From IMG/VR virus record IMGVR_UViG_3300046468_000670, positions 1 through 29,521 of that record: a DNA stretch of 29,521 nucleotides. The stretch is one strand, 5' to 3'. Source of the stretch: a virus. This document shows, piece after piece, positions 3 to 26,744 of the stretch. Every line of letters starts with the position of its first letter. Within the stretch, counting starts at the first letter, position 1. The notes beneath the pieces were generated by a model. It did no database searches. It was not told where the DNA came from and was given only the letters and a program-made list of their open reading frames with translations. The position numbers and the translations under genes were made by a program.

Positions 3-503
3 TATTATAGAACCATTCCTTATGCAATAGGCGATTCTACAAAGCAAGAGCTTTTAGATATAGCTCTTACTCCTGATGCATTTATAGATATAAGTTATAA
101 AATAAGTTTCTTTAAATTACCTAGTACTATACAAAAATTTAACACAACTGGTTTAGACTGTGTATGTCAAATATTAAAAGTATCAGAGTCAGGTAGTAAA
201 ATACACAAGGATAAAAATCGTTATAACGAATACGAAAATATATACATGCCACGTCAAACTGTAATTAGTTTTCCATTAACAGAAAATTGTGGAGAAACAT
301 GGTTTTATAATGACAAAGAAGAAAATGTTGCAAAGATAAATTATGACGGCTATGGTGCAGTGTTAAATACTGGTGAACACTTTCATAATGTTTACTTCAC
401 AGAAGACGATAATACTAGAATTGTTTTCCAGTTATGCTTTGAAGAAACATATAATGAAGTATGTACTTTGTACGAAGAGCATTTGAAAGGATTTGTGCTA
501 TGA
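3..503 (+). CDS. Fe(II)/2-oxoglutarate oxygenase-like protein, 5' partial
   Basis: The reading frame is open from base 3 at the window edge to the TGA at 501-503, giving 166 visible residues; the true start lies outside the window. An ATG at 246 is internal, because the facial-triad histidine and aspartate lie upstream of it. Visible residues include H68-x-D70, H127 (in GEHFHNV) and R139, with the spacing typical of double-stranded beta-helix Fe(II)/2-oxoglutarate enzymes: HxD, a second His about 57 residues on, and an Arg about 12 later. This arrangement suggests a hydroxylase-type dioxygenase; the substrate is unknown. It overlaps the next gene by ATGA, so the two are probably translationally coupled. 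A metal-binding cupin without oxygenase activity is the main alternative. Confidence 0.6.
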   Translation, partial: YYRTIPYAIGDSTKQELLDIALTPDAFIDISYKISFFKLPSTIQKFNTTGLDCVCQILKVSESGSKIHKDKNRYNEYENIYMPRQTVISFPLTENCGETWFYNDKEENVAKINYDGYGAVLNTGEHFHNVYFTEDDNTRIVFQLCFEETYNEVCTLYEEHLKGFVL

Positions 504-1075
504 ACAACGATTATATTTTAACATTACCTAGTCTTTTAGATGAAGATTATATGAAAAAAATAGGTAAAGAAACTTTAACAGAAGAATGGTTAAGCATAGG
601 TGATGTACAAGCACTCCGTAAATTTACAGATACAGTTACTATAGATGTTGAATCAGATCCGTATTTAAAAAGTATAAGAGACACATATCCTAAATTAGAA
701 TCTTATATAAAGTTATTAAAAATGGATAAAGGACAATGGCCTACTCATGTTGATACACAACGTAGTTGTGCAATAAATATTCCTATTCAAAATTGTGATG
801 AAACTAAAGTCACACAAATGGGTAAAAAAGGAAAACTAGTAAAGAGTATTGTAACAACTTTTGGTGATGTAGAAGCTGAATGGCATTCACATCAGTATGT
901 ACAATATGTAGCTGACGCTGTAGTAGATTTTGAATTTGCATTACAAGGGCCAACTTTATTTAACACTAAGATTCCGCATGGCGTTATTAATTACACAGAT
1001 ACTCAAAGAGTTATAGCTACATGGTCATATGATGACGATTTTGATAATGCAAAAAAGGATTTCCTTAATGGATAA
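500..1075 (+). CDS. Fe(II)/2-oxoglutarate oxygenase-like protein
   Basis: 191 residues from the ATG at 500, which overlaps the previous stop as ATGA and follows GAAAGG at 485-490. An ATG at 461 would overlap the upstream gene by 43 bases and is less likely. The protein shows H83-x-D85 (PTHVDTQRS), H160 (KIPHGVIN) and R170, matching the iron and 2-oxoglutarate ligands of the dioxygenase fold. The 'PHGVxN...R' segment is like that of aspartyl/asparaginyl beta-hydroxylase-type proteins. Substrate unknown. It differs enough from the neighbouring oxygenase-like proteins that they look like distant relatives rather than recent duplicates. Confidence 0.6.
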   Translation: MNNDYILTLPSLLDEDYMKKIGKETLTEEWLSIGDVQALRKFTDTVTIDVESDPYLKSIRDTYPKLESYIKLLKMDKGQWPTHVDTQRSCAINIPIQNCDETKVTQMGKKGKLVKSIVTTFGDVEAEWHSHQYVQYVADAVVDFEFALQGPTLFNTKIPHGVINYTDTQRVIATWSYDDDFDNAKKDFLNG

Positions 1076-1643
1076 TAAAAAGTGGGACGAAGTCTACACA
1101 AGTAAAAACATTGCTTGGGGTAAGTCTACTAGTACCTTCTTAAAAGAAGTAATACATATGTTTCCGGAAAAAGGCAAAGTTCTTGACTTAGGTTGTGGTG
1201 AAGGCAGAAATCTACAGTATCTTATTAATAAAGGATATAATGCTGTAGGGTATGAATTTTCAAATGTAGCAATTTCTCAAGCAGTAACTAAAAATATAAA
1301 ACATAAAGATCTTATACAAGAAGAATGGAATATAGGTAAATTTGATGTAGTTATAGATTTTGGCTTTTATCATTTTTATCCAACAGATAAACAAAACGAA
1401 TATTTTAAAAAGTTAGATAGTGTATTAAACACTGGCGGAATTTATATAAATGAATCTGCTAGACTAGTGGGAGATCCTTGGACAGGCGAAGATAATCCTT
1501 TAGGTTATAAACCCCCTCAGCTTCAGCGATCTGACTTTGATATTTTTGATAATTATAATAGAGTAGTTCTTAATAAAGGAGAATTGCCTGCTCACGGAGA
1601 TTGGAAAACATATCTTTGTTGGCAAGCCGTATATAAAAAATGA
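1068..1643 (+). CDS. class I SAM-dependent methyltransferase
   Basis: 191 residues from the ATG at 1068, chosen because AAGG at 1055-1058 is well spaced; the upstream in-frame ATG at 1029 lies deep inside the preceding gene. Motif I, VLDLGCGEGRN, falls at about residues 38-48 and is the S-adenosylmethionine-binding loop. It is followed by an acidic end of strand 2 (GYEFS) and a FDVVIDFGFYHF segment in the motif IV position. The size and short N-terminal lead resemble TehB/thiopurine-methyltransferase-like small-molecule methyltransferases, but the substrate cannot be told. It overlaps the upstream gene by 8 bases and the radical SAM gene downstream by ATGA, so it belongs to the same translational unit. 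Confidence 0.8.
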   Translation: MDNKKWDEVYTSKNIAWGKSTSTFLKEVIHMFPEKGKVLDLGCGEGRNLQYLINKGYNAVGYEFSNVAISQAVTKNIKHKDLIQEEWNIGKFDVVIDFGFYHFYPTDKQNEYFKKLDSVLNTGGIYINESARLVGDPWTGEDNPLGYKPPQLQRSDFDIFDNYNRVVLNKGELPAHGDWKTYLCWQAVYKK

Positions 1644-3151
1644 AAAATGCAATAATTTTTAACGATAGTGGACAGGATCTTACCCGTAGAACTATGGGAG
1701 CATATAAAGTAGCTGATATGATGAGAAAGGTTGGCTGGACAGTTGAGATAATAGATTGGGTTGAGCATTGGTCAGATAAAGAGGTACAACAGTTTGTTGA
1801 TCAGTTACCTTATAAAGTTACTTTGTTTGCCTTTGGTAATCTATGGATGACAGATACAACTGTCGTAAATAAAATAAGTTTTTTGAAAAAAACATATCCA
1901 GGTTCAAAGTTTTTATTAGGAGGACCTAAGCCATACCAAACAGACTTTGGTGCTGACTGTATGGTGTTTGGTTATAGCGAAAAAGCTCTTTTGCCTGTAT
2001 TAGACTGGATGTTTGACGGTGGCGAACAACCTAAAGGAAGGTATCCTGAATGGGCACCTAATAGTTTGCTAGTAGATGCTAATCATATGTATGCGGGACT
2101 AGACATAGATAAATTTGATTGCGAATATCACTCTCATGATTTTATTGAGAATCATGAAGCACTAACATTAGAAACTAGTAGAGGATGTAGATTTAAATGT
2201 AAATATTGTAATTATGCATTTTTAGGAGTCAAAGAAGATTATGGTAGATCTGAAGATGATATGTATAATGAACTAATGCGTAATTACGAAAAATGGGGTA
2301 CAACAAATTATATTATAAGTGATGATACTTTTAATGATAGAGATAACAAGATTGAAAAATTAGCGTTAGCTGTTGAAAGACTTCCTTTTGAACCTAACTT
2401 TACTTGTTTCATAAGATTAGATCTAGTTATATCAAAACCACATCAAGTAGACTTATTGATAAGAGCAAGGTGTTGGGGACATTTTTATGGAATAGAAACA
2501 TTTCATCCACAAGCGGCAAAAGCAATTGGAAAGGGTATGCACCCTGATAAAATTAAAAAAGGGCTGTTATGGATTAGGGACGAATTTAATAATCGATTAG
2601 GTCTATATAGAGGCACTTGTGGAATGATAGCTGGACTACCATATGAACCTGTACAATCTTGGTATGATAGTTTAGACTGGTTAGATAAAAACTGGGAAAG
2701 TTTCTTCTATTGGGGATTACATATAAGTGATGATCCTGATACACAAACACAAAGTGACTTTAGTGTTGACGCACAGAAGTTTGGTTACTTTGAAACAAAA
2801 AATCAAGAAGTACTTGACTGGTCTATTGAAAAAGGATATAACGTTCCTTTTAAAGCTGATCCTATGGGAAGACTTAATAACAAGTTAGATAATAGAGCGT
2901 TAGTATGGGAAAATGATATTACTAATTTTAAAGAGGCATCATTGTTTGGAGAAATGTATCACAACAAATACTTTTTTAAACAACGACTTTCAAATTTTGA
3001 TATGACTGAATATATAGGAAAGTTTCCAGAAGATAAAAAAGAACTGTTAAGTTTGACTTTAGATGAAATGTACTTAAAAAGAAAATATTCTTCTGTTAAC
3101 AAAAAAAGAATAGAACAGTATAAACAACATAAACTATCTCTTTTTAAATAA
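1640..3151 (+). CDS. radical SAM protein with N-terminal B12-binding-like domain
   Basis: 503 residues. The C-x3-C-x2-C motif (C183, C187, C190 in SRGCRFKCKYCNY) would bind the 4Fe-4S cluster that cleaves S-adenosylmethionine. Residues 1-125 look like the Rossmann-type cobalamin-binding domain common in this superfamily: an N-terminal strand, KVADMMRKVGW, then FLLGGPKP. The DxHxxG cobalamin-ligand motif is absent, so cobalamin may bind base-on or not at all. After the barrel (to about residue 370) comes a C-terminal extension of roughly 130 residues with a basic tail. It starts at an ATGA overlap with the methyltransferase. A methylase or C-C/C-S bond-forming role is typical of relatives, but the substrate here is unknown. 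It ends 8 bases inside the convergent gene 3144-3836. Confidence 0.85.
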   Translation: MKNAIIFNDSGQDLTRRTMGAYKVADMMRKVGWTVEIIDWVEHWSDKEVQQFVDQLPYKVTLFAFGNLWMTDTTVVNKISFLKKTYPGSKFLLGGPKPYQTDFGADCMVFGYSEKALLPVLDWMFDGGEQPKGRYPEWAPNSLLVDANHMYAGLDIDKFDCEYHSHDFIENHEALTLETSRGCRFKCKYCNYAFLGVKEDYGRSEDDMYNELMRNYEKWGTTNYIISDDTFNDRDNKIEKLALAVERLPFEPNFTCFIRLDLVISKPHQVDLLIRARCWGHFYGIETFHPQAAKAIGKGMHPDKIKKGLLWIRDEFNNRLGLYRGTCGMIAGLPYEPVQSWYDSLDWLDKNWESFFYWGLHISDDPDTQTQSDFSVDAQKFGYFETKNQEVLDWSIEKGYNVPFKADPMGRLNNKLDNRALVWENDITNFKEASLFGEMYHNKYFFKQRLSNFDMTEYIGKFPEDKKELLSLTLDEMYLKRKYSSVNKKRIEQYKQHKLSLFK

Positions 3152-3836
3152 TTTGATTTTCTATTTGGTAATCGATATGATTATCTAAATGCGGTATTAG
3201 GTTAAAGTTAAGAACATATCTATCGTTATTGTTGTGAGAATTTACAGCACCGTGTGGCTTACCAGTATCAAGATAAAACATTTTATTTGACCTTGTAAAA
3301 GAATAATCTTTACCTAAAACTCTCCAAGTATAATCAGCACCTGGAGTAATACAAATGTGCATCCTAATTCCTCTATACCAAGGATAATCAATATGTGCAG
3401 TTTTTTCTTGACTTAGTAAATCGTGTCCAGCTTCTAGTTTTATTAATCTTATTTGTGTTACTTGTCCTTTAAATTTACTAACAACTTCATCTAAATAAGG
3501 AAACCAAGCAGGACTCTTTTCTGTATATTCAATATCTATTGGACTATCAATTGTTTTATGAGAATGTACATTACTTGATAATCCTTGCCCTAATGGGTCT
3601 TTAGAATTTAATGTTGATTTAAAACAAAGTCCGTAGTAGCCCGGAACCACATGTTTCCCTACAGGACTGTCAACAGTATATGGAATCATTTTAAAATTAT
3701 TTAAAACATCTTTTATTCCTCTATCAATTTCATCTAAATTTACATCGTATCTATTGGGTAACCCAACTACATTATGTTTGCTTGGCTGGTAGTTGGTATA
3801 TAGCTCTTGCCATTTATTCACATCGTACATGTACAT
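3144..3836 (-). CDS. Asp/Asn beta-hydroxylase-like Fe(II)/2OG oxygenase
   Basis: About 230 residues, on the strand opposite to its neighbours. Counted from the TTG at 3848, the protein has H152-x-D154 (TAHIDYPWYRGIR), H199 (TGKPHGAVN) and R210, the iron and 2-oxoglutarate ligands of the double-stranded beta-helix fold; 'GKPHxxxN' is typical of aspartyl beta-hydroxylase-like proteins. The start is unsure. TTG at 3848 has no ribosome-binding site, ATG at 3836 abuts a TATAAATA late box, and ATG at 3830 would be at or near the expected transcript start. I give the 3836 start. Convergent overlaps and isolation on this strand suggest separate insertion or separate regulation. Substrate unknown. Confidence 0.65.
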   Translation of the reverse strand: MYMYDVNKWQELYTNYQPSKHNVVGLPNRYDVNLDEIDRGIKDVLNNFKMIPYTVDSPVGKHVVPGYYGLCFKSTLNSKDPLGQGLSSNVHSHKTIDSPIDIEYTEKSPAWFPYLDEVVSKFKGQVTQIRLIKLEAGHDLLSQEKTAHIDYPWYRGIRMHICITPGADYTWRVLGKDYSFTRSNKMFYLDTGKPHGAVNSHNNNDRYVLNFNLIPHLDNHIDYQIENQII

Positions 3837-3843
3837 ATTTATA
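3836..3843 (-). promoter_or_regulatory. T4-type late promoter box TATAAATA
   Basis: The - strand reads TATAAATA immediately before ATG codons of the oxygenase gene 3144-3836. This is the exact T4 late -10 consensus. Transcription would begin about 5-7 bases downstream, near the ATG at 3830, so the mRNA would be leaderless or nearly so. The box could be fortuitous in AT-rich DNA. Confidence 0.45.
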
Positions 3844-3846
3844 GGC

Positions 3847-3854
3847 AATAAATA
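3847..3854 (+). promoter_or_regulatory. possible late-like promoter box AATAAATA
   Basis: AATAAATA, one mismatch from the T4 late box, lies about 27 bases before the ATG at 3882 in the 45-base gap between two divergent genes. It is the only promoter-like element seen for the 3882-7699 gene group. The match is weak for AT-rich DNA. Confidence 0.3.
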
Positions 3855-3881
3855 CTAACAGTTAAAAAAGAGAACCCTAAT

Positions 3882-4814
3882 ATGACCAAAGACATAGATC
3901 TTAACAATATGAATTATTACGAGCTCGAGCCAGAGAATAATTCGTTTTATGATATAGTAGTTGATATTACTCACCGTTGTAATATGGAGTGTAAGAACTG
4001 TTATGTTCCAAATAGATTTATACCAGATATGCGACTAGCTGAATATACTAAATTTGTAGCAAAATTACCAAAGCCAGTTATGTTACGCATTGTAGGAGCG
4101 GAGCCAACTCTTCATCCAGAACTTACAGAGTTTATAAGAATTGGATTTGAACACGGGCATAATTGTATCTTAATTACTAACGGACTTCGATTAGCTAGTC
4201 AACCCTTTGTAGATAAAGTAGAGGCAACTGGACTAAAACATGTATACATGAGTTTGAACGGTATAGATAACGATGATTGGTACGAACAGATAGATGAAAT
4301 GAGATGTGCTACTAAAAAAATAAAAGCATTTATAAATTGTAAAGATAAGTTTAATATGAATGCAGGAATAATTTTAGTAAAAGGTATTAACGAAGAAGCT
4401 CCAAGAGCCGCCTTTGATTTAATTACTAGAGAAAAAGTTCCTGATATAACCTTGCGTTTTAAGAATGTAGGGCAACTTGGAAGATATCAAAAAGATGCTG
4501 ACGAAAATTTAAAAATGGCAGATATGGTAAAACTATGTGCAGATCAATTAGGTTTTACAGAAGATTATATTTGGAGTCATTATGGTAAGCCTCATCGATA
4601 TAGTAATGTTGTAGAACCAGGCACTATTGAGTTTCCATTAGATCCTAATAATAAAGAAAGATACAAAGGGCAATGGGTAAAGATAACCGATTGGGATACA
4701 GATAACGAAGTAGGTATTCCTGATCCTGGTAGTGTACGTAGAGGGAGAGTAACTAAAGATTGGAAAGTAGCACCTTTCTATGAGCATGTTAAGATGAACG
4801 AAGGCGAGTACTAA
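3882..4814 (+). CDS. radical SAM protein (MoaA/SPASM-like core)
   Basis: 310 residues. C33, C37 and C40 (HRCNMECKNC) form the CxxxCxxC cluster-binding motif, and VGAEP at 71-75 is the position of the GGEP motif that contacts the S-adenosylmethionine amino group, with Ala replacing the second Gly. The core is most like the MoaA/PqqE-type radical SAM enzymes, but I see no C-terminal cysteine-rich SPASM or twitch domain; the last 90 residues are charged and aromatic. It opens the second half of the + strand cassette and is followed by the GMP-reductase-like gene with a one-base TAATG overlap. A purine-ring or peptide substrate are both possible; nothing in the sequence decides. Confidence 0.82.
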   Translation: MTKDIDLNNMNYYELEPENNSFYDIVVDITHRCNMECKNCYVPNRFIPDMRLAEYTKFVAKLPKPVMLRIVGAEPTLHPELTEFIRIGFEHGHNCILITNGLRLASQPFVDKVEATGLKHVYMSLNGIDNDDWYEQIDEMRCATKKIKAFINCKDKFNMNAGIILVKGINEEAPRAAFDLITREKVPDITLRFKNVGQLGRYQKDADENLKMADMVKLCADQLGFTEDYIWSHYGKPHRYSNVVEPGTIEFPLDPNNKERYKGQWVKITDWDTDNEVGIPDPGSVRRGRVTKDWKVAPFYEHVKMNEGEY

Positions 4815-5842
4815 TGAAAGTAAAGGATCTAAAGTTAGATTTTAGTGATGTACTTATTGAGCCTTGTGAGAGTGAGATTACTCTTACACGTAAAAGTGTT
4901 GACATTGAAATAGAGTGGTTAGATACTACAGCAACTCCTGTAATAGTATCTAATATGCTTAGTACTGGTACTTATAAGATTGCAAATATACTTACTCCAG
5001 AACGCATCTTTACATTCATACACAAAGAATATACTGTTGAACAGCATATTAATGAATTAGAAAAAATGAAAGATAGAAGGTTCATAGCTATTACTAGTGG
5101 TGTACGCTTACAAGATAGAGAAAAAACAATCGAAGTAATTAGTAAGTTTCCTGATATCGGAATAATCAATGTTGACATTGCAAATGTATATGCTAATATA
5201 CAAGGTATGATTGATACAATAAAATTATATAGAGAAAAATTTCCTAACATACAAATATGTGCTGGCAATGTAGCAACAGCAAGTCCTATACAAAAATTTG
5301 TTAAAGCAGGAGCAACATTAATTAAAGTAGGTGTTGGTAGTGGCGCCGCCTGTAGAACACGTTCAGAAGTAGGTACAGGTGTACCGCAACTAAGTGCTAT
5401 TATGGATTGTTATACAGAAGCACAAAAGTATGGTGTAGGAATTATATCTGATGGCGGATGTGTTACTGCTGGCGATATTTGTAAAGCAATTGGCGCTGGT
5501 GCTAAAATGGTAATGATAGCAGGTATGGTGTCTAAGTCAGAAGAGTGTGATAATATTGTAGAAATAGATGGTAAAAAATATATAAACTTTTACGGTTTAG
5601 GTAGTACAACTATGTACAATCGTACAAATCCAACAGAACAAGAGTATAGGCCTAACGAAGGTAGAGACTTGTTAATACCGTGTAAAGGGTCGATTAAAAG
5701 CATTTTAAAGCAGATACAAGGCGGTTTACGTAGTGTATGCACTTATGTAGGTGCAGAGAACATAACACAGCTATATAAGTGTACTACGTTTGTTCGTGTA
5801 AACAACCAAATTAACAACAGTTTGGCGAAGTATGAACAATGA
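4814..5842 (+). CDS. guaC: GMP reductase/IMP dehydrogenase-family enzyme
   Basis: 342 residues, about the length of bacterial GMP reductase (347). Family members use a (beta/alpha)8 barrel and a catalytic Cys to convert GMP plus NADPH to IMP and ammonia. The catalytic loop is conserved as GSGAACRTR with C180 and T182 (C186 and T188 in E. coli GuaC), as are CAGNVAT, SDGGC, the E282 equivalent in YRPNEGR, and GGLRSxCTYVGA near the end. There is no CBS domain pair, which favours GuaC over IMP dehydrogenase. Odd points: NMLSTGTY in place of the usual NMDTVGT, and DIANVYA in place of DVANGY, both near the substrate pocket, so a purine analogue rather than GMP may be the substrate. It overlaps both neighbours (TAATG, then ATGA). 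Confidence 0.85.
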   Translation: MKVKDLKLDFSDVLIEPCESEITLTRKSVDIEIEWLDTTATPVIVSNMLSTGTYKIANILTPERIFTFIHKEYTVEQHINELEKMKDRRFIAITSGVRLQDREKTIEVISKFPDIGIINVDIANVYANIQGMIDTIKLYREKFPNIQICAGNVATASPIQKFVKAGATLIKVGVGSGAACRTRSEVGTGVPQLSAIMDCYTEAQKYGVGIISDGGCVTAGDICKAIGAGAKMVMIAGMVSKSEECDNIVEIDGKKYINFYGLGSTTMYNRTNPTEQEYRPNEGRDLLIPCKGSIKSILKQIQGGLRSVCTYVGAENITQLYKCTTFVRVNNQINNSLAKYEQ

Positions 5843-6546
5843 TAGATTATGCTAATATATTAAACAATGGTGTAGAAATAAGCAGTAGTGGTACTACAGG
5901 ACCTGCTAAAAAGGTCTTTAGAACGCCAGATAACTTAAAGGCTTGTATTGATGTTGCTATTGAGGCTCAACAGCTTGTACGAAGCTCTAAGGTGCTTACA
6001 GTAACTCGTATGACACATGCAGGCGGCTTATTAACACAAACATTACCTGCTTATAGTATAGGTGCAGATTTTAAAGTACAACAATTTAATGCTTTTACAT
6101 TTTTAAAAGATTTTAAAGATTACACACATACATTCCTCGCTCCGGCACAAATGACCGCACTTATGAATACAAAAGGATTTGAAGATTGTGATCTTACAGG
6201 CAAACGTATACTAGGAGGAAGTGATCCTGTTAGTTGGGAAATGGTTGAAGCATTTGTAAGTAAAGGTGCTGTTGTACAGCCTAACTGGGGAATGAGCGAA
6301 ATAGGACCAATTACTATTAATATAGAATTTGATAGCATTGATAAAGTACAACACGTAAAATCAAAAACACCAGAAGGTTATACTATATTAGGAGATAAAT
6401 TTTATTGTGATTGGAAAATAGTCAAACACGAATTATATGTAAAAGGACCGACTAGTATATATAATGATTGGTATGCTACTGGAGATTTAGTATCTCTTGA
6501 TATGGGTAGACGGATGTACTATCTTGGACGAAAGGAAAACATATGA
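5839..6546 (+). CDS. short adenylate-forming (AMP-binding) enzyme, N-domain only
   Basis: 235 residues with the core motifs of the acyl-CoA synthetase/NRPS-adenylation/luciferase superfamily: A3 SSSGTTGPAKKV at 15-26, a THAGGL segment at about 59-64 (as in MenE-like ligases), A5 NWGMSEIGP at 149-157, A7 YATGDLV at 212-218 and A8 LGRKENI at 229-235. The protein stops exactly at the A8 hinge, so the approximately 110-residue C-terminal domain with the A10 lysine is missing, and the part before A3 is also shortened. Family members activate a carboxylate as acyl-AMP. The intact motifs and ATGA overlaps on both sides argue for a working mini-enzyme rather than a decayed gene; the missing lysine domain might be supplied in trans. 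Confidence 0.75.
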   Translation: MIDYANILNNGVEISSSGTTGPAKKVFRTPDNLKACIDVAIEAQQLVRSSKVLTVTRMTHAGGLLTQTLPAYSIGADFKVQQFNAFTFLKDFKDYTHTFLAPAQMTALMNTKGFEDCDLTGKRILGGSDPVSWEMVEAFVSKGAVVQPNWGMSEIGPITINIEFDSIDKVQHVKSKTPEGYTILGDKFYCDWKIVKHELYVKGPTSIYNDWYATGDLVSLDMGRRMYYLGRKENI

Positions 6547-7112
6547 AAAAGTGTATGTTCAAATTTGATTTTGATTATGATAAAGAAAAACTTTTAAAAG
6601 AATCACAGTTACTAAATTATACACCTGTTAATTATAATAATTTTTTAACACGATCATCTAATGAAACTAACAATGATAATCTTTCTTTTGTTGAAAAAGA
6701 CAAACAATGGTGGGATAAACAAACATCTTGGAATGCATCAAGAGAGCCTAAAAGCAAAAATGCTAATCTTTCTGAAAGTAAACGTATTATAGAATTATTC
6801 AAAAAAGTTTGTAATACTGATAAAATTAGACCTAGTTTCTTAACTCAAAAAAAAGATACAGAAGTTTTATTACATATTGATCCAGGTACATTATGTAAAA
6901 TCAATCTTGTTTTGCAAGGAGGTCAAACTCCTATAAATTTTCAAGGATACGGAGACGAACTTTACGAAGTAGCATTATTAAATATAACGTTGAACCATAG
7001 TGTACCAATTCAAACAGACCAAGATAGAATATTATTTACACTACGTTTTACACATCATAGTTATAACTATGTACGTCGAAATCTACAAAATTATTTTAGG
7101 AGCAGTAAATGA
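6543..7112 (+). CDS. Fe(II)/2-oxoglutarate oxygenase-like protein
   Basis: 189 residues. H111-x-D113 (LLHIDPGT), H152 (NHSV) and R162 (QDRILF) match the HxD...H...R pattern of 2-oxoglutarate oxygenases, with 39 residues between D113 and H152, a short version of the fold. The first 80 residues are charged, Asn/Lys-rich and not recognised. It begins with an ATGA overlap after the adenylate-forming gene and ends with an ATGA overlap before another oxygenase-like gene. Substrate unknown. With the short core, a non-catalytic cupin-like role is possible. Confidence 0.5.
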   Translation: MKKCMFKFDFDYDKEKLLKESQLLNYTPVNYNNFLTRSSNETNNDNLSFVEKDKQWWDKQTSWNASREPKSKNANLSESKRIIELFKKVCNTDKIRPSFLTQKKDTEVLLHIDPGTLCKINLVLQGGQTPINFQGYGDELYEVALLNITLNHSVPIQTDQDRILFTLRFTHHSYNYVRRNLQNYFRSSK

Positions 7113-7699
7113 GACCATACTTTGAATATGTAGAAGGTATAAACTTTTCAGAAGAAACACGCAAAGCACTAGCAGAAAATATTCTATCTAATGCTGAAGA
7201 TTATATTCGCAGTTCAAACGATCATGCTAACAAGTACGGAAAGTATGATTGGAATTGGTTTTGTCCAAGGGATTTAATTCCTACACAACTTATGGACGAA
7301 GTAGGAAAACTTTTTAAAATAGATGTAGCATATGAAATACTAGGACAAACACCTTACACTGACGGTAAGATACATATTGATCGTAAAGTAGAAGGACTAC
7401 CTCCTAGAGTAACACTTATTAATTTTCCTATATATCCATTTGATATGAATACATACGGACCAACAAACTTTTTTAAACTTACGTCAGGAAAATATTCTGA
7501 TTACGATAACGCTGTATTTGAAAAACAATGTAGTGTTGACTACAAACATAATAAGCCTGTAATTTTTAACTTACAAGAATATCATAATGCTGTTAATGAT
7601 ACAAATGATTATAGATTTAATTGCCAGTTTACAACTGGTTTAGAATTTAATGAAATTATTGAATTGTATGATAATAAAGAATTATTTAAACTAAGTTAA
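7109..7699 (+). CDS. Fe(II)/2-oxoglutarate oxygenase-like protein
   Basis: 196 residues, last gene of the + strand cassette. H89-x-D91 (GKIHIDRK), H159 (EYHNAVN) and R169 (DYRFNCQF) match the metal and 2-oxoglutarate ligands. The 'YHNAVN...R' segment is like that in several phage-encoded dioxygenases. It is coupled to the previous gene by an ATGA overlap and converges with the tail-fibre gene, overlapping it by 14 bases, so no dedicated terminator is visible between the two transcription units. Substrate unknown. Confidence 0.6.
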   Translation: MRPYFEYVEGINFSEETRKALAENILSNAEDYIRSSNDHANKYGKYDWNWFCPRDLIPTQLMDEVGKLFKIDVAYEILGQTPYTDGKIHIDRKVEGLPPRVTLINFPIYPFDMNTYGPTNFFKLTSGKYSDYDNAVFEKQCSVDYKHNKPVIFNLQEYHNAVNDTNDYRFNCQFTTGLEFNEIIELYDNKELFKLS

Positions 7700-8801
7700 C
7701 CCAAGCACTGTTTTCATAGCCTTGGAATTTATTATCAGTAGTATTGTAAATAACCATTCCGTTTGCGGCTGTAAGTGCATTACGTTCTGTAGTTGTCATT
7801 GATCCAAACTGTACAAATCCACCTGAAGTTACATTACCTGCTGAAACAAGATCGTTGTTACCTTTAATACGTAATGCTTCACCGTACGTGCTAACTGCCC
7901 CGTTTCTAGTTCTAATAATAATATCAGCATCAATATTTACTGTGCTTGCTGAATTGATAACAGTAGTCATATTTGCTGTAATCATATTATTGCCCGAATC
8001 ATCTAATGCTGACCAAGCAAAGCCGCCAATACTATCTCCTGCTAGAGCAGTTGTTTTGTTGGCAATAGTACCTCTTGCTTTATAAAAACCAAATTCGTGT
8101 GATATAGCACTATCTTGTACGTTTCTCAATTGAAACGTTGATAATGGAAATGATCCGGGTACAGTTGTGTTATAATAAAACACATTTGGGTTAACACTTT
8201 TTGTACCAATATCAATATTGTTGTCAAATGTAGACGCCTGCATAGCATTAATTTTACCAAGCAACTCACCTTTAACAGCATCTACTAAACTTGTACTGTC
8301 ATCACTAAATAATGAACCAACTACATCACCGTTAACATTACCAACTACGTTTCCAAAGTGTGTACCTGTTGTAGTACCAACTACGTTACCTGTAACTGAT
8401 CCTGTAACATCACCTGTTAAGTTACCAACTACATTAGTTGCTGTAACTGAACTAGTTACTACTGGTCCTACAATTCTTCCGTTTATAGCGTCAACTAGGA
8501 GCGTTGAGTCATCACCATAAATGTTACCACGTATGTCAATTGCTGGATTATCTGTTGCCGCCCAATTTGAACCGTTGTATACAAGGATCTGATCGTTCTG
8601 TGCGGCTAACGCTTGTACGTTACCTAAATCTTCTAAATTCTGTGTTGATACAGATACTGGAGTACCACCTGTTGTGGCTCCGTCTCCAACAAATACTTCT
8701 TTGCTGTCTGTTGTGTAAACAAGTTCACCTTCAGCTGGTACATAACCTGGACTGGTTTGTAGTGCTGTTTTGGTGCCTCGTTTGATTCGTAAAGTACCCA
8801 T
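7686..8801 (-). CDS. tail-fibre-like structural protein
   Basis: 371 residues. The N-terminus (LRIKRGT...PGYVPAEGELVYTTDSKEVFVGDGATTGG, residues 4-46, quoted in parts) is the small beta domain found at the start of many phage tail-fibre and tropism-determinant proteins. Residues 125-162 are a run of short G-[DN]-V-x-G repeats, flanked by two copies of a 23-residue module (92-114 and 162-184) with the shared core DDST-LVDA. The C-terminus (FGSMTTTERNAL...MVIYNTTDNKFQGYENSAWVNL, in parts) is a common fibre tip or chaperone-adjacent motif. It likely forms a trimeric adsorption fibre on the virion. A late promoter box at 8829-8836 and a ribosome-binding site AGGAGC support late expression. Confidence 0.8.
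   Translation of the reverse strand: MGTLRIKRGTKTALQTSPGYVPAEGELVYTTDSKEVFVGDGATTGGTPVSVSTQNLEDLGNVQALAAQNDQILVYNGSNWAATDNPAIDIRGNIYGDDSTLLVDAINGRIVGPVVTSSVTATNVVGNLTGDVTGSVTGNVVGTTTGTHFGNVVGNVNGDVVGSLFSDDSTSLVDAVKGELLGKINAMQASTFDNNIDIGTKSVNPNVFYYNTTVPGSFPLSTFQLRNVQDSAISHEFGFYKARGTIANKTTALAGDSIGGFAWSALDDSGNNMITANMTTVINSASTVNIDADIIIRTRNGAVSTYGEALRIKGNNDLVSAGNVTSGGFVQFGSMTTTERNALTAANGMVIYNTTDNKFQGYENSAWVNLV
8250..8528 (-). repeat. internal protein-level repeats in the tail-fibre gene
   Basis: Two related 23-codon modules (8460-8528 and 8250-8318) share G-x-[IL]-[YF]-x-DDST-x-LVDA-[IV]-[NK]-G-x-[IL]-[VL]-G. Between them lie tandem glycine/valine motifs of the GDVTG, GSVTG, GNVVG type. Such repeats give extended beta-structure in fibres and can change length by recombination. 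Confidence 0.7.
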
Positions 8802-8828: not shown

Positions 8829-8836
8829 TATTTATA
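8829..8836 (-). promoter_or_regulatory. T4-type late promoter TATAAATA
   Basis: The - strand has an exact TATAAATA 27 bases before the tail-fibre start codon, followed by a ribosome-binding site AGGAGC about 8 bases before the ATG. T4-like late genes for virion proteins are transcribed from this type of box by RNA polymerase carrying the phage late sigma factor (gp55). Position, sequence and gene type agree. Confidence 0.75.
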
Positions 8837-10146: not shown

Positions 10147-10423
10147 TGTACTTCAAAAGTGGACATGCTAAAACGAAATAAGAAAGCTCTTTTGGGTCTT
10201 CAAACCCTGCTCTAAGAACCGTTTCAATCTTATTTTCTTTAGTTAATCCTATCACTTTTTTTAGAAAGTATCTCTTTTTTAGATTACTATCAATCCATTT
10301 AGAAATAGCATTTTCTATATTATAAGTGTGTGGTAAGTCTATTGTGGTAAGATGTGAAGACTCATAAGATAGCCTTCTTATCTCAAAAAAATCTTGAGCA
10401 GTAACTCTATTTTTAACGATCAA
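10142..10423 (-). CDS. small phage hypothetical protein
   Basis: 93 residues, starting at a TTG at 10423 that overlaps the previous stop as TTGA. A very strong ribosome-binding site, AGGAGG, four bases upstream supports this unusual start codon. The protein is Lys- and Leu-rich, probably mostly helical, with no recognised motif or membrane segment. It is translated right after the VWA/metallopeptidase gene, so it may act with that protein, but nothing in the sequence shows this. Confidence 0.6.
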   Translation of the reverse strand: MIVKNRVTAQDFFEIRRLSYESSHLTTIDLPHTYNIENAISKWIDSNLKKRYFLKKVIGLTKENKIETVLRAGFEDPKELSYFVLACPLLKYK

Positions 10424-11706
10424 CGTGCCTCCTCATAGTGAGCAGTTACACCAAACGGTGCTTTAGTATTCTTATCATGATGTCCATGTATAATGAATAC
10501 TGTTTCGCAGTAGTCTTCATCTCCCCAACTACCAAATGGGTATCCATCTGTAAACATAATAAACTTCTTAGGTGTTATATTATGTTCTTTCATATATTCC
10601 CAATTAGTCATAAAGTCAGTACCGCCACCGCCTTGTATATCGTAACTAAGCAAGTCCTCACCGCCATCTGCACTAAAGTCTTGTTCATTATATACGGCTG
10701 TATCAAATGTCCATAACTTAATATTATAATCTTTATATTCTTCCATAATGCCTTTAATCTCACCTAAGAAATCTTTAGCCTGATGATCACCAATTGAACC
10801 ACTCATGTCAAGTCCAATAGCAACATCAATTGTATCCATAAAGTTCATACCTGGAAGTATTGCACCAGTATGCCAGCCTTTACGTGAAGGACGACTAAAC
10901 GTATAATCGTTTCTAATTGTAGATTGTATTTGCTGACGTAGTAGTTCACGCCAGTTCATTTTAGGTTCTGTAAGTTCTTTAATAATACGTTGTACTTCTG
11001 CAGGAGTGTTACCAGCACCTGCGGCTTGTGCAGAACTTAACATGTTTTCTTTTACTTCGTCACGTATCTTTTTAAGTTCTTCTTTGGTGTATGTAGGACG
11101 ACCTTCGCCTTTGCCTTCTTTGCCACCGCCTTTGCTTTCGTTACTACCTTCTGATTCTTTTTCCCAGTCAACGTGTTCATCAAGTAAATCACCAAGTGCT
11201 TCTAAATATTCTTGGCCTTTTTCTTCTGCTTGTTTAAACAAGTCATCATACACTGCTTCACTCATCCAACCATCATATTTAAAGTCTTGATAGCATTGTA
11301 CAATCTTAACCATTTCACCAATACGGTCACGTACTAATGTATTGTTTACGATGTAATCACATGCGATATTGTGTAGTACTGGAATACGATCTTCTCTACG
11401 TGTAATATGATCGAAAACACAATGTAAAATCTCGTGTGCGATTACAAATTCTATTTCCTTATTGCTCATAGCATTAAAGAATTGTGTGTTATAATATAAA
11501 TGTTTGCCGTCTGTAGCGGCAGTAGGACACCAATCATCACAGTTTTTAACAATAAGCCTAGTAGCCATATTGCCAAAGAATGGGTGTCTAAGTAGTAAAC
11601 CAACACGAGCAACAATAATTCTATCAGCTACGTCTATTCGCATTTCTGCAAGTTCTTGCTCAGTAATGTCTGGATTAGGTTGAAAACCTTTTGTATCTAT
11701 GCCCAT
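10420..11706 (-). CDS. VWA-like metallopeptidase-domain protein (MoxR partner)
   Basis: 428 residues. The N-terminal half has a zinc-peptidase signature, H91-E92-I-L-H95 (AHEILHCVFDH). The C-terminal half is a von Willebrand A-like domain with a MIDAS metal site: D300-M-S302-G-S304, T363-D364 (GGGGTDF) and D387 (FTDGYP). A Gly/Lys/Glu-rich linker lies at about 184-205. This two-domain layout is found next to MoxR-like AAA ATPases in bacteria and phages, where the pair is thought to remodel or load metal into target complexes. It has its own sigma-70-like promoter and a ribosome-binding site AAGGAG. The MoxR-like gene lies just upstream, separated by a hairpin, so the two can be regulated independently. 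Confidence 0.8.
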   Translation of the reverse strand: MGIDTKGFQPNPDITEQELAEMRIDVADRIIVARVGLLLRHPFFGNMATRLIVKNCDDWCPTAATDGKHLYYNTQFFNAMSNKEIEFVIAHEILHCVFDHITRREDRIPVLHNIACDYIVNNTLVRDRIGEMVKIVQCYQDFKYDGWMSEAVYDDLFKQAEEKGQEYLEALGDLLDEHVDWEKESEGSNESKGGGKEGKGEGRPTYTKEELKKIRDEVKENMLSSAQAAGAGNTPAEVQRIIKELTEPKMNWRELLRQQIQSTIRNDYTFSRPSRKGWHTGAILPGMNFMDTIDVAIGLDMSGSIGDHQAKDFLGEIKGIMEEYKDYNIKLWTFDTAVYNEQDFSADGGEDLLSYDIQGGGGTDFMTNWEYMKEHNITPKKFIMFTDGYPFGSWGDEDYCETVFIIHGHHDKNTKAPFGVTAHYEEAR

Positions 11707-11740
11707 ATTGTGTACTCCTTGTGTGCCATTTTATACTTAC

Positions 11741-11769
11741 AGTATACAGTATTTAATACCATTTGTCAA
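11741..11769 (-). promoter_or_regulatory. sigma-70-type promoter of the VWA gene
   Basis: On the - strand: -35 TTGACA (11764-11769), 17-base spacer, -10 TATACT (11741-11746). The start codon of the VWA gene lies 35 bases downstream of the -10, with AAGGAG between. Expected to be used by unmodified host polymerase. Confidence 0.8.
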
Positions 11770-11782
11770 CAGTTTTGGTAAA

Positions 11783-11829
11783 ATATTGGGCAAGGTCTTA
11801 CCAGCATAAGCCGTTGCCTTGCCCAATAT
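11783..11829 (-). terminator. hairpin after the MoxR-like gene, probable terminator
   Basis: A perfect 13-base inverted repeat (ATATTGGGCAAGG at 11783-11795 and its complement at 11817-11829) encloses a 21-base loop. On the - strand it comes 12 bases after the MoxR-like stop codon and is followed by TTTT. That is consistent with an intrinsic terminator, though the U-tract is short and the loop long, so an RNA processing or protein-binding site is possible. It sits just before the VWA promoter. A second palindrome, GTGCCTATTAGGCAC at 11834-11848, overlaps the stop codon. Confidence 0.65.
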
Positions 11830-11840
11830 CACCGTGCCTA

Positions 11841-12929
11841 TTAGGCACTCTGTGCGGCTTGGATATACTTACCAAAACGCTCATGGAACTCATCAAAACA
11901 CTCTACTTCATCTGGGTCGATTGGAAGTGAGTATTGTGTTAGAGCTAGTTTGATACCCATAACAACTAATTCAGTATCAAAGTTATCCATTGCAAACCTT
12001 AAGAAGTTATTTACTTTGTTGTCAAACTTCTTATCGTTTTTATCGCATGCGTCTTTAAGTTCATAGCAAAGTGAAACAGTCAAGGAATACATGGCACTGA
12101 TTTCTTTAGTTTCACAATCCTTAACCTTACCTTCAAGTATGTCAGTAGGGTCAGGAAGTTTTGAAGCAACCTTACGATGCGCCATAAACTTAACGGCAAG
12201 TCCTTCGCCGACAGAACCACTTACCAAATCGGTAGTGGTGTTCTCATCATCATCGTCTTCGATAAGCTCGGAAACAAATGACCAAGAACGAGGTGTAGCA
12301 AACGAACGACTTGGGCTCTTTGGATCAAAGTCATACAAGTCCTTCTTGCTAAAAGTTAAGTAACCAACAACATCTTGGTGTATGTCGTTGTCTACTGCCC
12401 ACTGGAACCAGTCATCAAAATCAACTGCTAGTTCTAAGTGAACAAATCTATTTGCTAACGGAGCAGGCATTCTATAAGTAACACCTTTGTCAGCATCTCT
12501 ATTACCAGCCGCAACAATCAAAACATTGTCTGGTAATTTGTATTGTCCAATACGTCTGTTAAGAATAAGTTGGTAAGCGGCCGCTTGTACAGCCGGTGCC
12601 GCAGAATTCATTTCGTCTAAGAACAAAACGATGTAATCGAATTGTTTAGCAAACTCTTCCGTAGGAAGTTCTTGCGGTGGTGCCCAAGCCATTACATTAT
12701 CATTTGCCGAATAGTATGGAATACCTTTAATATCTGTAGGTTCCCAAAGTGACAAACGTATGTCAATTAAATGTGATTTTTTAAGTTGTTTAGTGATCTG
12801 TCCAACGATATCAGACTTACCAATACCTGGAGGTCCCCACATAAACACAGGACGTTTCTTTTTAAAAGCTCGTATAATGCTTTTTTTTGCGCCATTAGGT
12901 GAAACAGTACGTAGTGCAGTATTTTCCAT
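11841..12929 (-). CDS. MoxR-like AAA+ ATPase
   Basis: 362 residues from the ATG at 12929, chosen because GAGGAA precedes it at good spacing; an in-frame ATG at 12962 has no ribosome-binding site. From 12962 numbering, Walker A is GPPGIGKS (43-50) and Walker B is VLFLDE (112-117) followed by MNSAAPAVQAAAYQL, the usual sequence of MoxR-type ATPases that open ring oligomers. An AAA lid region with Arg-rich SPSRSFATPRSW follows at about 216-228. Its partner is the VWA/metallopeptidase gene downstream. Such pairs occur in several marine phages; the phage role is not established. A consensus promoter lies at 12986-13014. Confidence 0.85.
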   Translation of the reverse strand: MENTALRTVSPNGAKKSIIRAFKKKRPVFMWGPPGIGKSDIVGQITKQLKKSHLIDIRLSLWEPTDIKGIPYYSANDNVMAWAPPQELPTEEFAKQFDYIVLFLDEMNSAAPAVQAAAYQLILNRRIGQYKLPDNVLIVAAGNRDADKGVTYRMPAPLANRFVHLELAVDFDDWFQWAVDNDIHQDVVGYLTFSKKDLYDFDPKSPSRSFATPRSWSFVSELIEDDDDENTTTDLVSGSVGEGLAVKFMAHRKVASKLPDPTDILEGKVKDCETKEISAMYSLTVSLCYELKDACDKNDKKFDNKVNNFLRFAMDNFDTELVVMGIKLALTQYSLPIDPDEVECFDEFHERFGKYIQAAQSA

Positions 12930-12985
12930 ATTATATTCCTCGTTTGTTGTTATCAGTGCCATACTTTATTTCTAAGTATGTATAT

Positions 12986-16314: not shown

Positions 16315-16413
16315 TTACCATCCTGCCTTTCTTATTTTATCTTCGTTAATAGGTGCTTTCATAGCTTTTTCATGTTGCTTATTTTTGTATCGTGCATCAA
16401 GTGCCCCACGCAT
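16315..16413 (-). CDS. possible 32-residue small protein
   Basis: A short open frame overlapping the 3' end of queE by 17 bases, starting at ATG 16413, basic in composition (KNKQHEKAMKAP) and ending four bases before the next gene's start. It fills the only gap between queE and gene 15928-16311. The ribosome-binding site is poor (GGAA immediately before the ATG), so this may be only intergenic sequence. Confidence 0.25.
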   Translation of the reverse strand: MRGALDARYKNKQHEKAMKAPINEDKIRKAGW

Positions 16414-17305
16414 TTCCGAAGAGTGAAATGTGTAGTCTTGGGGTAAATCTCCATCCTTCTGCCATACACGCTTCAGCCACGTCTTTAACGTTGAGGGCAT
16501 ATTCTTCACTGCGTCCACCCAACGGCATAAGATATACTGGACATTGTACCCCGGCACCTTGATAAGCACTGACAGCTCTTTTAACTTCATCAAAATCATC
16601 TTGAGTAGCGACAACAAACTTAAGATAGATGTCGCTATCAGTAACAGTGTTATACTGCTCAGCCACATCAGGCTTAATAGCAGTATCCCAAGGTTCTCCG
16701 CTAACACTAAGTTTTGGGGAACAAGACCAAGTAACTTGGATTCTGTCTTGATCGTTGAGATAGTTGAAGAAATCGTTGTGTAAGTGTTGTGTAGTATTTG
16801 TTTCAAATGTAACATTCCTTAAATCCTGCATACGTGGATGTTCAAATAAATCGATGTAGAGCTTTTGCCACGCCAATAAAGGCTCTCCACCTGTCATGAT
16901 CAAATGTACGTCTTGACCATTATCTTGTACCCACTTACCGTTAGGAGTAAGTGATAGTAAATGTTCAACAACAGCATCAACACCTGCTAGTTTGTTAAAG
17001 TGTTTAAACTCAGGATAGATACTTGCATATGTATCACAGCCTGTGTGTATAATAGGCAAGTCGTTAAATTCTTTTGTAGTTTCGTGTACACCTTGATTGA
17101 TAAGTTCCATTACTTCTGCGTTATGTTTCTTACCTGCTTTGTGTTGCTCCCAACGATCACGTTTTTCGTCTGTACCAAAGTTCATACAACGAAAGTTACA
17201 ACCAAAGGTACGTAAGAACACACTAGGCACTCCTACAAATTTACCTTCACCTTGTACACTATAAAATGCTTCTGAGTATCTTAATTGTTTTTCTTTACTT
17301 TCCAC
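16397..17305 (-). CDS. queE: QueE, 7-carboxy-7-deazaguanine synthase (phage type)
   Basis: 302 residues from GTG 17305, chosen because AGGAG lies seven bases upstream and the protein then begins just before the conserved EAFYSVQGEGKFVGVPSVFLR segment. QueE is a radical SAM enzyme that contracts 6-carboxy-tetrahydropterin to 7-carboxy-7-deazaguanine in preQ0 synthesis. The cluster ligands are C36 and C40 (GCNFRC) and, after an insertion, C90 (HTGCDTYAS), giving C-x3-C-x49-C instead of CxxxCxxC. MTGGEPLL, the ETNTT segment, WSCSPKLSVSG and the C-terminal HISLFGNAWGT are also present. It overlaps folE by 11 bases. Confidence 0.88.
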   Translation of the reverse strand: MESKEKQLRYSEAFYSVQGEGKFVGVPSVFLRTFGCNFRCMNFGTDEKRDRWEQHKAGKKHNAEVMELINQGVHETTKEFNDLPIIHTGCDTYASIYPEFKHFNKLAGVDAVVEHLLSLTPNGKWVQDNGQDVHLIMTGGEPLLAWQKLYIDLFEHPRMQDLRNVTFETNTTQHLHNDFFNYLNDQDRIQVTWSCSPKLSVSGEPWDTAIKPDVAEQYNTVTDSDIYLKFVVATQDDFDEVKRAVSAYQGAGVQCPVYLMPLGGRSEEYALNVKDVAEACMAEGWRFTPRLHISLFGNAWGT

Positions 17306-17984
17306 AAGCAAACTCCTGTTGTAGTTTAATGTTATCCATAAACTCTTTCTTAGTACCTGCGTCATCTTTAAACGCACCTTTAAGTACAGTTGTTTGTGTA
17401 AGACTACTGTGTGCCTTAATACCCCTGTTCTCAACACAACCATGTGTTGCTTGTACATAAACACCTAAGTGTTCTGCACCTGTTGCTTTTTGTATTTCAC
17501 GAGTAATGTCGTTTGCAAGTTCTTCTTGTAGTGTACCACGTTCAGCACACCATTGTGCAATACGTGTATACTTAGATAGTCCAATTAATTTGTCAGCGGC
17601 AATAATACCAATGTACGCAACACCTTTTACAATTTGATGATGATGTGAACACATACTTGTAAGTTCGCTTCTAACAACTAACATACCTGCATAACGGTCT
17701 TCACCATCATTTGGAAATGCAGTTGCGGCCGGCATAGGATCATAACGTCCTGCCATTAATTCATTAATATACATTTTTGCTAGACGTTTGCCAGTTCCCA
17801 TACTGTTAGGATCATTATGCCTATCAATCACAAGTGAGTCTAGCACACTTTCAAAGGCTACAGTTGCTTCTTCAATTAGTGCTTCTTTGTCACCGTCTAC
17901 TAAAACATCACTGATATTGTCACCAGCCCACGATCTAATACCAGCTTCTTCTAGCCTTGTTTTAATTTCTTCACTTTTGTTCAT
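17295..17984 (-). CDS. folE: GTP cyclohydrolase I
   Basis: 229 residues. The enzyme makes dihydroneopterin triphosphate from GTP, the first step of both folate and 7-deazaguanine synthesis. Zinc ligands are in place: C112 and H115 (MCSHHHQIVKG) and C183 (HGCVENRG). GLSKYTRIAQWCAERGTLQE at about 135-154 is the conserved core helix. The upstream sigma-70 promoter and GGAGA ribosome-binding site support this start. Coupling to queE suggests the product goes to deazaguanine rather than folate. The leader (17985-18029) contains a small hairpin (AGGCA/TGCCT) but no recognisable preQ1 riboswitch. Confidence 0.92.
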   Translation of the reverse strand: MNKSEEIKTRLEEAGIRSWAGDNISDVLVDGDKEALIEEATVAFESVLDSLVIDRHNDPNSMGTGKRLAKMYINELMAGRYDPMPAATAFPNDGEDRYAGMLVVRSELTSMCSHHHQIVKGVAYIGIIAADKLIGLSKYTRIAQWCAERGTLQEELANDITREIQKATGAEHLGVYVQATHGCVENRGIKAHSSLTQTTVLKGAFKDDAGTKKEFMDNIKLQQEFACGK

Positions 17985-26311: not shown

Positions 26312-26340
26312 ATTATACGACATTTTGTTGATAAAGTCAA
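26312..26340 (-). promoter_or_regulatory. sigma-70-type promoter of gp45
   Basis: On the - strand: -35 TTGACT (26335-26340), 17-base spacer, -10 TATAAT (26312-26317). The TGA stop of the upstream cytidylyltransferase is inside the -35 hexamer. Distance to the ATG is 24 bases. Confidence 0.88.
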
Positions 26341-26744
26341 CTACTTTTTACTCTATTTCGGAGATCACTGCTCGAAAAACGGTGTTCTCTTTTGTTAAAA
26401 AACAGTTCGATTCCTCGTTTGGCACATATAGCCCTACCAGTAAACTTACCATTTTTGTATTCTTCACCTAAAATCCTAACGTCAATATGAAGCATATTTA
26501 GAATGTCTTCTAAGTCTGTTTCTGTTTGATATGGGATTATTTCGTCAACGTACTTGATAGCACTAAGTTGTGTATGTCTTTCTACTATAGTTTGTACGGG
26601 TGAATTCTTCTCTGGACGATCAAGACTTGGATCAATTTGTAAGCCACAAATCAAGTATTCACATTGTTCTTTTGCATCTCTCAGCATTTGTATATGACCT
26701 GCGTGGAGCAGATCAAATGTACTACATGTGAAGCCTATCTTCAT
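26337..26744 (-). CDS. cytidylyltransferase-like nucleotidyltransferase
   Basis: 135 residues. HAGH (14-17), in STFDLLHAGHIQML, is the HxGH motif of the glycerol-3-phosphate/phosphocholine/ADP-heptose-type nucleotidyltransferase superfamily, and RFSSSDLRNR near the C-terminus replaces the ISTTxIR motif. Length matches TagD-type enzymes (about 130). It would join a phosphorylated alcohol or sugar to a nucleoside diphosphate. The epimerase lies upstream (ATGA overlap) and gp45 downstream, so it is part of a sugar-nucleotide block. The substrate cannot be deduced. Confidence 0.82.
   Translation of the reverse strand: MKIGFTCSTFDLLHAGHIQMLRDAKEQCEYLICGLQIDPSLDRPEKNSPVQTIVERHTQLSAIKYVDEIIPYQTETDLEDILNMLHIDVRILGEEYKNGKFTGRAICAKRGIELFFNKREHRFSSSDLRNRVKSS

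Follow-up and report, generated by a model that had tools for sequence, protein, structure and literature searches.

Marine T4-like phages carry a hypervariable region between VrlC and the neck gene gp14, the host recognition cluster (HRC), which contains tail fibres, lipopolysaccharide (LPS) genes and radical S-adenosylmethionine (SAM) cassettes (PMC7029224). The T4-like environmental virus TARA_ERS488813_N000010 has 12 radical SAM genes, which were discussed in relation to the supply of Fe-S clusters (PMC5332604). For cyanophages, 2-oxoglutarate (2OG) oxygenases, prnA-type halogenases and carbamoyltransferases have been listed (PMC3037559), and one viral halogenase, VirX1 of cyanophage Syn10, has been characterised (PMC8407142). 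What such radical SAM enzymes, oxygenases and halogenases do for marine T4-like phages is not known, although reports of them are frequent. Here we studied the enzyme genes at positions 3-7699 of the IMG/VR virus record IMGVR_UViG_3300046468_000670, of which positions 1-29,521 (29,521 nucleotides) were analysed and are called the window. We found that one of these genes, encoding a shortened adenylating enzyme (gene H), is paired in most related loci with a gene for a GNAT-type protein, and that this core is surrounded by exchangeable tailoring enzymes. We suggest, at a probability of about 0.4, that the genes studied are the 3' part of an island, in the tail-fibre region of a marine T4-like phage, that encodes a modular decoration pathway, acting on a surface glycan, a lipid or a tail fibre and built on an acyl- or aminoacyl-activation core.

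On its variability and tail-fibre position, the island is a variant of the HRC kind, with tail fibres on both sides and turnover of its genes. It shares with the HRC of pelagimyophages and cyanomyophages the large variable extent, the tail fibres, the surface-sugar genes and the gained radical SAM cassettes; unlike that cluster, for which no such core was found described, it has a core of mini-adenylating enzyme, GNAT, DUF6356 and aminotransferase (PMC7029224). TARA_ERS488813_N000010 is similar in that it too is marine and T4-like and has many radical SAM genes (PMC5332604). The tailoring classes are also those of VirX1 (PMC8407142) and of the prnA, 2OG oxygenase and carbamoyltransferase genes of cyanophages (PMC3037559), whose natural roles are unknown or only proposed, whereas the halogenases of the island relatives are about 30% identical to those of isolates and lie in a swappable slot between the family of gene A (F8) and the GMP reductase or the core. 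An earlier note on this DNA knew of no described phage system with this combination of genes. This is partly wrong, because marine T4-like phages are already described as having tail-fibre islands of variable content, in which radical SAM cassettes, LPS genes, halogenases and 2OG oxygenases occur (PMC7029224, PMC3037559, PMC5332604). In the literature covered, which included few subscription papers and in which absence is weak evidence, we found neither the core nor a pair of adenylating enzyme and acetyltransferase described in marine phages, and DUF6356 appeared once, in an unrelated context.

A conserved core around gene H

5839..6546, + strand: gene H, mini-adenylating enzyme of 235 aa (family F1); PF00501 at E=2.6e-13, covering profile positions 170-333 of 384

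With H as the query, 80 loci were found in viral contigs. With the loci from genome contigs included, 80 loci had a detectable H, and clustering H at 95% identity reduced them to 56. The contigs are metagenomic, several records are fragments, and the loci were dereplicated by H or GNAT alone. Within 10 kb of H, GNAT was present in 47 of the 56 loci, DUF6356 in 39, a radical SAM gene in 35, an Asp/Asn-hydroxylase-like gene in 32 and a class IV aminotransferase in 31. When only the 53 dereplicated loci with upstream sequence were considered, GNAT was within 10 kb in 47 and always on the strand of H; the exceptions to the pairing include the orphan H of four bacterial metagenome-assembled genomes (MAGs). 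The reciprocal search with GNAT yielded 80 loci, 40 of them dereplicated and with enough downstream sequence, and H was found within 8 kb of GNAT in 38. The two exceptions carry H just outside the 8-kb flank (by contig name, L135 is L073 and L191 is L062). The H-GNAT pair is therefore close to obligate. In five loci (L015, L077, L102, L108 and L109) the order of the two genes was reversed with the adjacency retained, which argues for function over passive synteny. GNAT and DUF6356 were adjacent in 33 of 38 cases, and DUF6356 and the aminotransferase in all 29. We consider it very probable that H and GNAT form a co-selected unit.

Gene H spans the core of an ANL enzyme. It begins just before motif A3 and stops at A8, without a C-terminal lid, and this architecture was identical in all nine aligned copies, which end at or just past A8. 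The motifs of the ATP site, namely A3 (SSGTTGxxK), A5 (GMSE), A7 (TGD) and A8 (R), were kept in the nine-sequence alignment, with the exception that the Gly of A7 and the Lys of A3 were absent from some copies. An AlphaFold (AF2) model of H had a predicted local distance difference test score (pLDDT) of 91.6 and matched MenE (o-succinylbenzoate-CoA ligase) in Foldseek at E=7e-14. Thus H is like MenE and other ANL enzymes in its catalytic-core fold and ATP-site motifs, and unlike them in that its copies are without about 120-170 N-terminal residues and the whole C-terminal lid. No C-terminal domain with the A10 lysine was found, and the bacterial orphan copies end at A8 as well. BFVD already contains a 214-aa phage protein with a fold similar to that of H, so that a short ANL protein in a virus is in itself nothing new.

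Relatives of H were rare in bacteria. Of 54 genomes from one gammaproteobacterial order, 5 had such a relative, and among 289 genomes of the class of G019 only the query genome did. In four bacterial MAG contigs (L048, L049, L051 and L053) solitary copies of H had ordinary chromosomal neighbours, with no GNAT and no clue from an operon. DUF6356 in the bacterial chromosomes of the class of G019 lay near an Lrp-type regulator in several loci, which was uninformative. In L106 (8173-9201), and probably in L100 too, the gene directly upstream of GNAT, DUF6356 and the mini-adenylating enzyme encodes a lid-less AMP-binding protein of 342 aa whose P-loop is degenerate (TNRSTPEPK); it is possibly a pseudo-adenylating partner of H.

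For the GNAT protein, Pfam hints were obtained in 11 of 34 members, and its model (pLDDT 86) matched GNAT structures at E of about 4e-6 with a TM-score of about 0.5. The relatives nearest to the aminotransferase were fold-IV amine and branched-chain transaminases. In phage isolate records, H had no close relative and matched at 26% only, and neither GNAT nor the radical SAM gene D of the window was found. A concatenated query of seven island proteins against the phage isolates gave a single match, to an Asp/Asn-hydroxylase-like gene of Pelagibacter phage Mosig.

The genes of the window and their exchange

The other nine genes studied were as follows.

3..503, + strand: gene A, HxD..H..R oxygenase-like protein (family F8); truncated 5' by the window, complete copy of 173 aa at 54053-54574 of contig IMGVR_UViG_3300047353_000337 (G001)
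500..1075, + strand: gene B, HxD..H..R oxygenase-like protein (F25), by conserved residues and hhalign links
1068..1643, + strand: gene C, class I SAM methyltransferase (F26); Pfam PF13649 at E=1.6e-10
1640..3151, + strand: gene D, B12-binding-type radical SAM enzyme (F27); CX3CX2C, PF04055 at E=1.6e-15
3144..3836, - strand: gene E, HxD..H..R oxygenase-like protein (F45), by conserved residues and hhalign
3882..4814, + strand: gene F, radical SAM enzyme (F35); CX3CX2C, PF04055 at E=5.7e-13
4814..5842, + strand: gene G, GMP reductase-like enzyme (F3); IMPDH/GMPR Pfam at E=1.5e-62
6543..7112, + strand: gene I, HxD..H..R oxygenase-like protein (F46), by conserved residues and a weak Pfam match
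7109..7699, + strand: gene J, HxD..H..R oxygenase-like protein (F19), by conserved residues and hhalign links to A and B

The ten genes of the earlier note, with their positions and tight overlaps, were all recovered. The open reading frames A to J were intact, and coding sequence made up a fraction of 0.994 of positions 3-7699. Taking 500 and 1068 as starts, neighbouring genes on the + strand overlapped by 4, 8 and 4 bases from A to D and then 1, 4, 4 and 4 bases from F to J, and gene E (ATG at 3836, - strand) overlapped gene D tail to tail by 8 bases. Gene A is without its first 7 codons in the window, and these are present in G001, a near-identical contig of 72.8 kb. Pairwise dN/dS against relatives, by the method of Nei and Gojobori (NG86), was about 0.12-0.14 for A, D, F, G, H and J, and these are therefore functional genes and not decaying cargo; the divergence of gene C was too high for a firm value.

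The family calls were also borne out, by Pfam for the two radical SAM enzymes, the methyltransferase, the IMPDH/GMPR and the AMP-binding protein, and by residue conservation for the five oxygenase-like proteins. In each of these five families, of 4 to 19 sequences, the iron triad HxD...H and the distal Arg were present in 93-100% of the members. They were invariant in A (H68, D70, H128 and R139, n=19) and J (H89, D91, H159 and R169, n=15) and were kept in 93% of 15 sequences in B (H96, D98, H173 and R183). The corresponding residues were H152, D154, H199 and R210 in E, numbered from the TTG at 3848, and H111, D113, H152 and R162 in I (n=4). Profile-profile comparison tied A, B, E and J to one another or to an Asp/Asn-hydroxylase-like family with probabilities of 83-96% (hhalign: A to J 95.5%, B to J 93.6%, B to the Asp/Asn-hydroxylase-like family 83%, E to it 96%). 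B and E lead to a family that weakly matches Asp_Arg_Hydrox, A and J are connected through B, and none reached a curated 2OG cut-off. The links of I were weaker, at 43% in profile-profile comparison and E=0.04, under the cut-off, for Pfam Asp_Arg_Hydrox. By these profile links, at least four of the five oxygenases probably belong to one superfamily.

Genes D and F have the CX3CX2C motif and a PF04055 match above the cut-off, as expected of radical SAM enzymes. In D, the match to a B12-binding domain was weak (1.1e-4, under the cut-off) and that to the PhpK-like TIGR04479 (4e-14) was far under its cut-off; gene F had no equivalog match above the cut-off. PADLOC gave only partial matches to radical SAM or methyltransferase-core components and no system, and an anti-phage defence system was rejected.

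The best matches of gene G were GMP reductases. It matched NCBIfam PRK05096 at E=2e-89 with 300 bits and missed the equivalog cut-off of 397 bits; we therefore name it GMP reductase-like and not a certified equivalog. It matched human GMPR1 at 5.5e-73, and its identity to annotated phage GMP reductases was 34-38%. Cys, Thr, Lys and Glu are the catalytic residues of GMP reductase, and the corresponding C180, T182, K71 and E282 were invariant in seven aligned phage copies. G is therefore like GMP reductase (GuaC) and TubD/ToyE in its catalytic residues, and unlike them in its score under the equivalog cut-off and its site within a tailoring operon.

The families of the window do occur together elsewhere, the point on which the earlier note had asked for a check. 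Within 10 kb of H in the 56 loci, G was found in 23, A in 16, D in 14, J in 13, C in 12 and B in 10, a halogenase family in 8, and E and I in 2 each. The slot between the aminotransferase/A block and G-H holds B-C-D-E-F in the window and a gene of the flavin-halogenase family in L009 and L084. In L014 the slot is empty and the aminotransferase runs straight into H. The pattern is that of tailoring enzymes exchanged around a core that stays fixed. The tight coupling from which the earlier note derived a pathway thus stands for an accessory coupled cassette, but not for a single fixed pathway, because the conserved unit is smaller and lies partly outside the window, and the oxygenases, methyltransferase and radical SAM genes can be swapped, for instance with a halogenase.

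The island beyond the window

The island extends over at least 21 kb between tail-fibre genes, and the window holds its 3' third. Contig G001 has the same genes, with proteins 99-100% identical to those of the window, and extends further in the 5' direction. Its 5' part has, in order, twitch-domain radical SAM proteins (NF033640 above the cut-off) and more radical SAM genes; two proteins read as nitroreductase-like, the one scanned having no profile match; a sugar-type aminotransferase (PseC/LegC-like, under the cut-off), a NodU-type carbamoyltransferase and a second methyltransferase-like gene; and an Asp/Asn-hydroxylase-like oxygenase, a GNAT-like protein, a small DUF6356 protein and a class IV aminotransferase. 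Further upstream are tail-fibre and tail-collar-like proteins. At the other end of the genes studied is the following feature.

7686..8801, - strand: tail-fibre protein with Mtd-type N-terminus (family F20); Pfam Mtd_N 3.6e-11, PHROG tail fiber 1.2e-9

This fibre was within 10 kb of H in 26 of the 56 loci. With tail-fibre genes upstream in G001 and downstream in the window, the island is therefore bracketed by tail fibres.

The proposed pathway and its alternatives

The reactions, their order, the substrate, the target and the purpose given here are what we would propose from the gene content, its conservation, the partnership of H and GNAT, two protein folds and the position of the island. 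The core would be formed by the lid-less ANL enzyme H and a GNAT-fold acyltransferase, which are usually accompanied by a small membrane protein, DUF6356, and often by an aminotransferase of fold type IV dependent on pyridoxal phosphate (PLP) and a GMP reductase-like enzyme. The aminotransferase may determine whether a small acid is in its amino or its keto form, the carboxylate of this acid would be activated by H as an adenylate, and GNAT would then move an acyl group onto an amine. DUF6356 might bring these reactions to the membrane, and the group would be diversified by whichever oxygenases, methyltransferase, radical SAM enzymes or halogenase the island carries. The decoration would end up on the infected cell, on a surface glycan or a lipid, or on a component of the tail fibre, and the payoff may be altered receptor recognition or the exclusion of competing phages. 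The PseC/LegC-like aminotransferase (under the cut-off) and the NodU-type carbamoyltransferase in the same island are enzymes of the sugar or surface type and are consistent with this pathway. If the decoration pathway is real, ocean phages would possess a modular set of enzymes for changing surface chemistry, and the shortened adenylating enzyme together with its acyltransferase would represent a minimal acylation system of a new kind. The small conserved core amid variable enzymes gives a concrete experimental handle of four or five small genes.

Several points weigh against the decoration pathway. No direct evidence points to a target, and among the genes examined none was recognised as coding for a carrier protein. 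Full ligase activity of H is doubtful because the C-terminal ANL lid and the catalytic A10 lysine are missing. The model of GNAT matches at the level of the fold only, with the acetyl-CoA loop (residues 88-93) as its low-confidence part. The GMP reductase is without an obvious place in the pathway and may belong to plain nucleotide metabolism. Clear glycosyltransferase profiles are few, with one weak match, in a relative. The correlation between the distances of H and GNAT was moderate (r=0.58) and is uncorrected for vertical descent.

A more specific form of the proposal, which we regard as somewhat unlikely, is that the phages have an acylation system of their own, in which the lid-less adenylating enzyme and GNAT, possibly on a DUF6356 membrane platform, install an amino or acyl group that is then diversified by exchangeable oxygenases, radical SAM enzymes or halogenases. 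If so, the chemistry of the cell surface or of the virion would vary rapidly, in a chemical arms-race system without a described counterpart.

Among the alternatives, the one that survives best is that there is no joint pathway and that the island is a hypervariable parking region for separate host-take-over enzymes, with the GMP reductase converting GMP to inosine monophosphate (IMP) to balance nucleotides for an AT-rich genome. The strong turnover of most genes fits this view, as do the presence of GMP reductases in other phages such as Cr30 and XacN1 and the GC content of 32-38% in the window. However, separate enzymes would hardly account for the near-obligate pairing of H and GNAT with its kept adjacency, for the overlapping genes and for the purifying selection, and we consider this view unlikely.

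Two further explanations are, in our opinion, distinctly improbable. The first is that a diffusible small molecule, antibiotic-like or a signal, is made during infection, with the island as a genuine biosynthetic gene cluster of the phage. Halogenase, oxygenases, B12-type radical SAM enzyme, methyltransferase, aminotransferase and adenylating enzyme do form a tailoring set of the natural-product type, and module swapping is strong. However, no nonribosomal peptide synthetase, polyketide synthase, carrier protein or precursor of a ribosomally synthesised and post-translationally modified peptide was recognised among the island proteins read or scanned, the short open reading frames being not exhaustively searched; moreover, a membrane protein is usual in the core, and the tail-fibre location points to the surface or the virion. 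The second is that the enzymes modify the phage's own tail fibre after translation, by hydroxylation, halogenation or acylation, and so diversify the receptor-binding tip. Asp/Asn-hydroxylase-like enzymes can act on proteins, and besides its frequency near H and the fibres at the upstream border, the F20 fibre is directly upstream and co-directional in L104, with a similar placement in L085 and L111. However, this adjacency may be just inherited synteny, and neither the aminotransferase nor the GMP reductase nor the adenylating enzyme is in itself an enzyme of protein modification.

The suggestion of the earlier note that the cassette makes a hypermodified DNA base, for example a further-altered 7-deazaguanine, is very unlikely: the window has FolE and QueE-like genes (QueE by PHROG, under the NCBIfam cut-off) and a 511-aa protein at 23997-25532 (- strand) with a TGT/DpdA-like DSGGFQ motif read by eye, and TubD, a GMP reductase homologue related to ToyE, acts in the biosynthesis of the 7-deazapurine antibiotic tubercidin (PMC6112128), but the DpdA call has the motif and no profile match, the 7-deazaguanine genes lie about 9 kb from the cassette on the opposite strand, the GMP reductase-like gene is missing near most core loci (33 of 56), and a DpdA-like gene was not found in 10 of the 18 mini-adenylating enzyme contigs searched, although fragments may hide it. 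We found no positive evidence for such a base, and a DNA-base pathway is not supported because the core is not confined to phages with DpdA; two contigs of 204 kb (G359 and G360) have the core and no DpdA-like gene.

Further features of the window and its relatives

The QueE-like radical SAM gene and FolE at 16397-17984 (- strand) form, with the gene at 23997-25532 (- strand), a probable set for 7-deazaguanine DNA modification. At 26337-28206 (- strand), a nucleotidyltransferase (RfaE/HldE-like), a NAD-dependent epimerase-like gene and a UDP-sugar dehydrogenase-like gene stand in a row and add to the sugar-nucleotide genes. A MoxR-type AAA ATPase and a VWA-type protein make up a pair at 10420-12962 (- strand), which is also found beside the core in the distant phages L101 and L106; PHROG names the VWA-type protein an HNH endonuclease, and this label looks wrong.

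A scan of the window for the T4 late promoter-like TATAAATA gave 2 matches against 5.5 expected, which by itself is no evidence. The two TATAAATA sites were at 3836-3843 (- strand), at the start of gene E, and at 8829-8836 (- strand), 28 bases upstream of the tail-fibre gene.

In 16-18 loci (L093, L113-L117, L123 and others), genes for TctA-type (PF01970) and probable TctC-type tricarboxylate transporter proteins lay 2-5 kb downstream of the mini-adenylating enzyme. Just downstream of it, 22 loci (for example L120:10656-11411) had a member of a recurrent protein family, about 250 aa long, which shows a P-loop-like GAxGHxxxR motif but gave no Pfam match, and a gene neighbouring this family had a weak sulfotransferase match.

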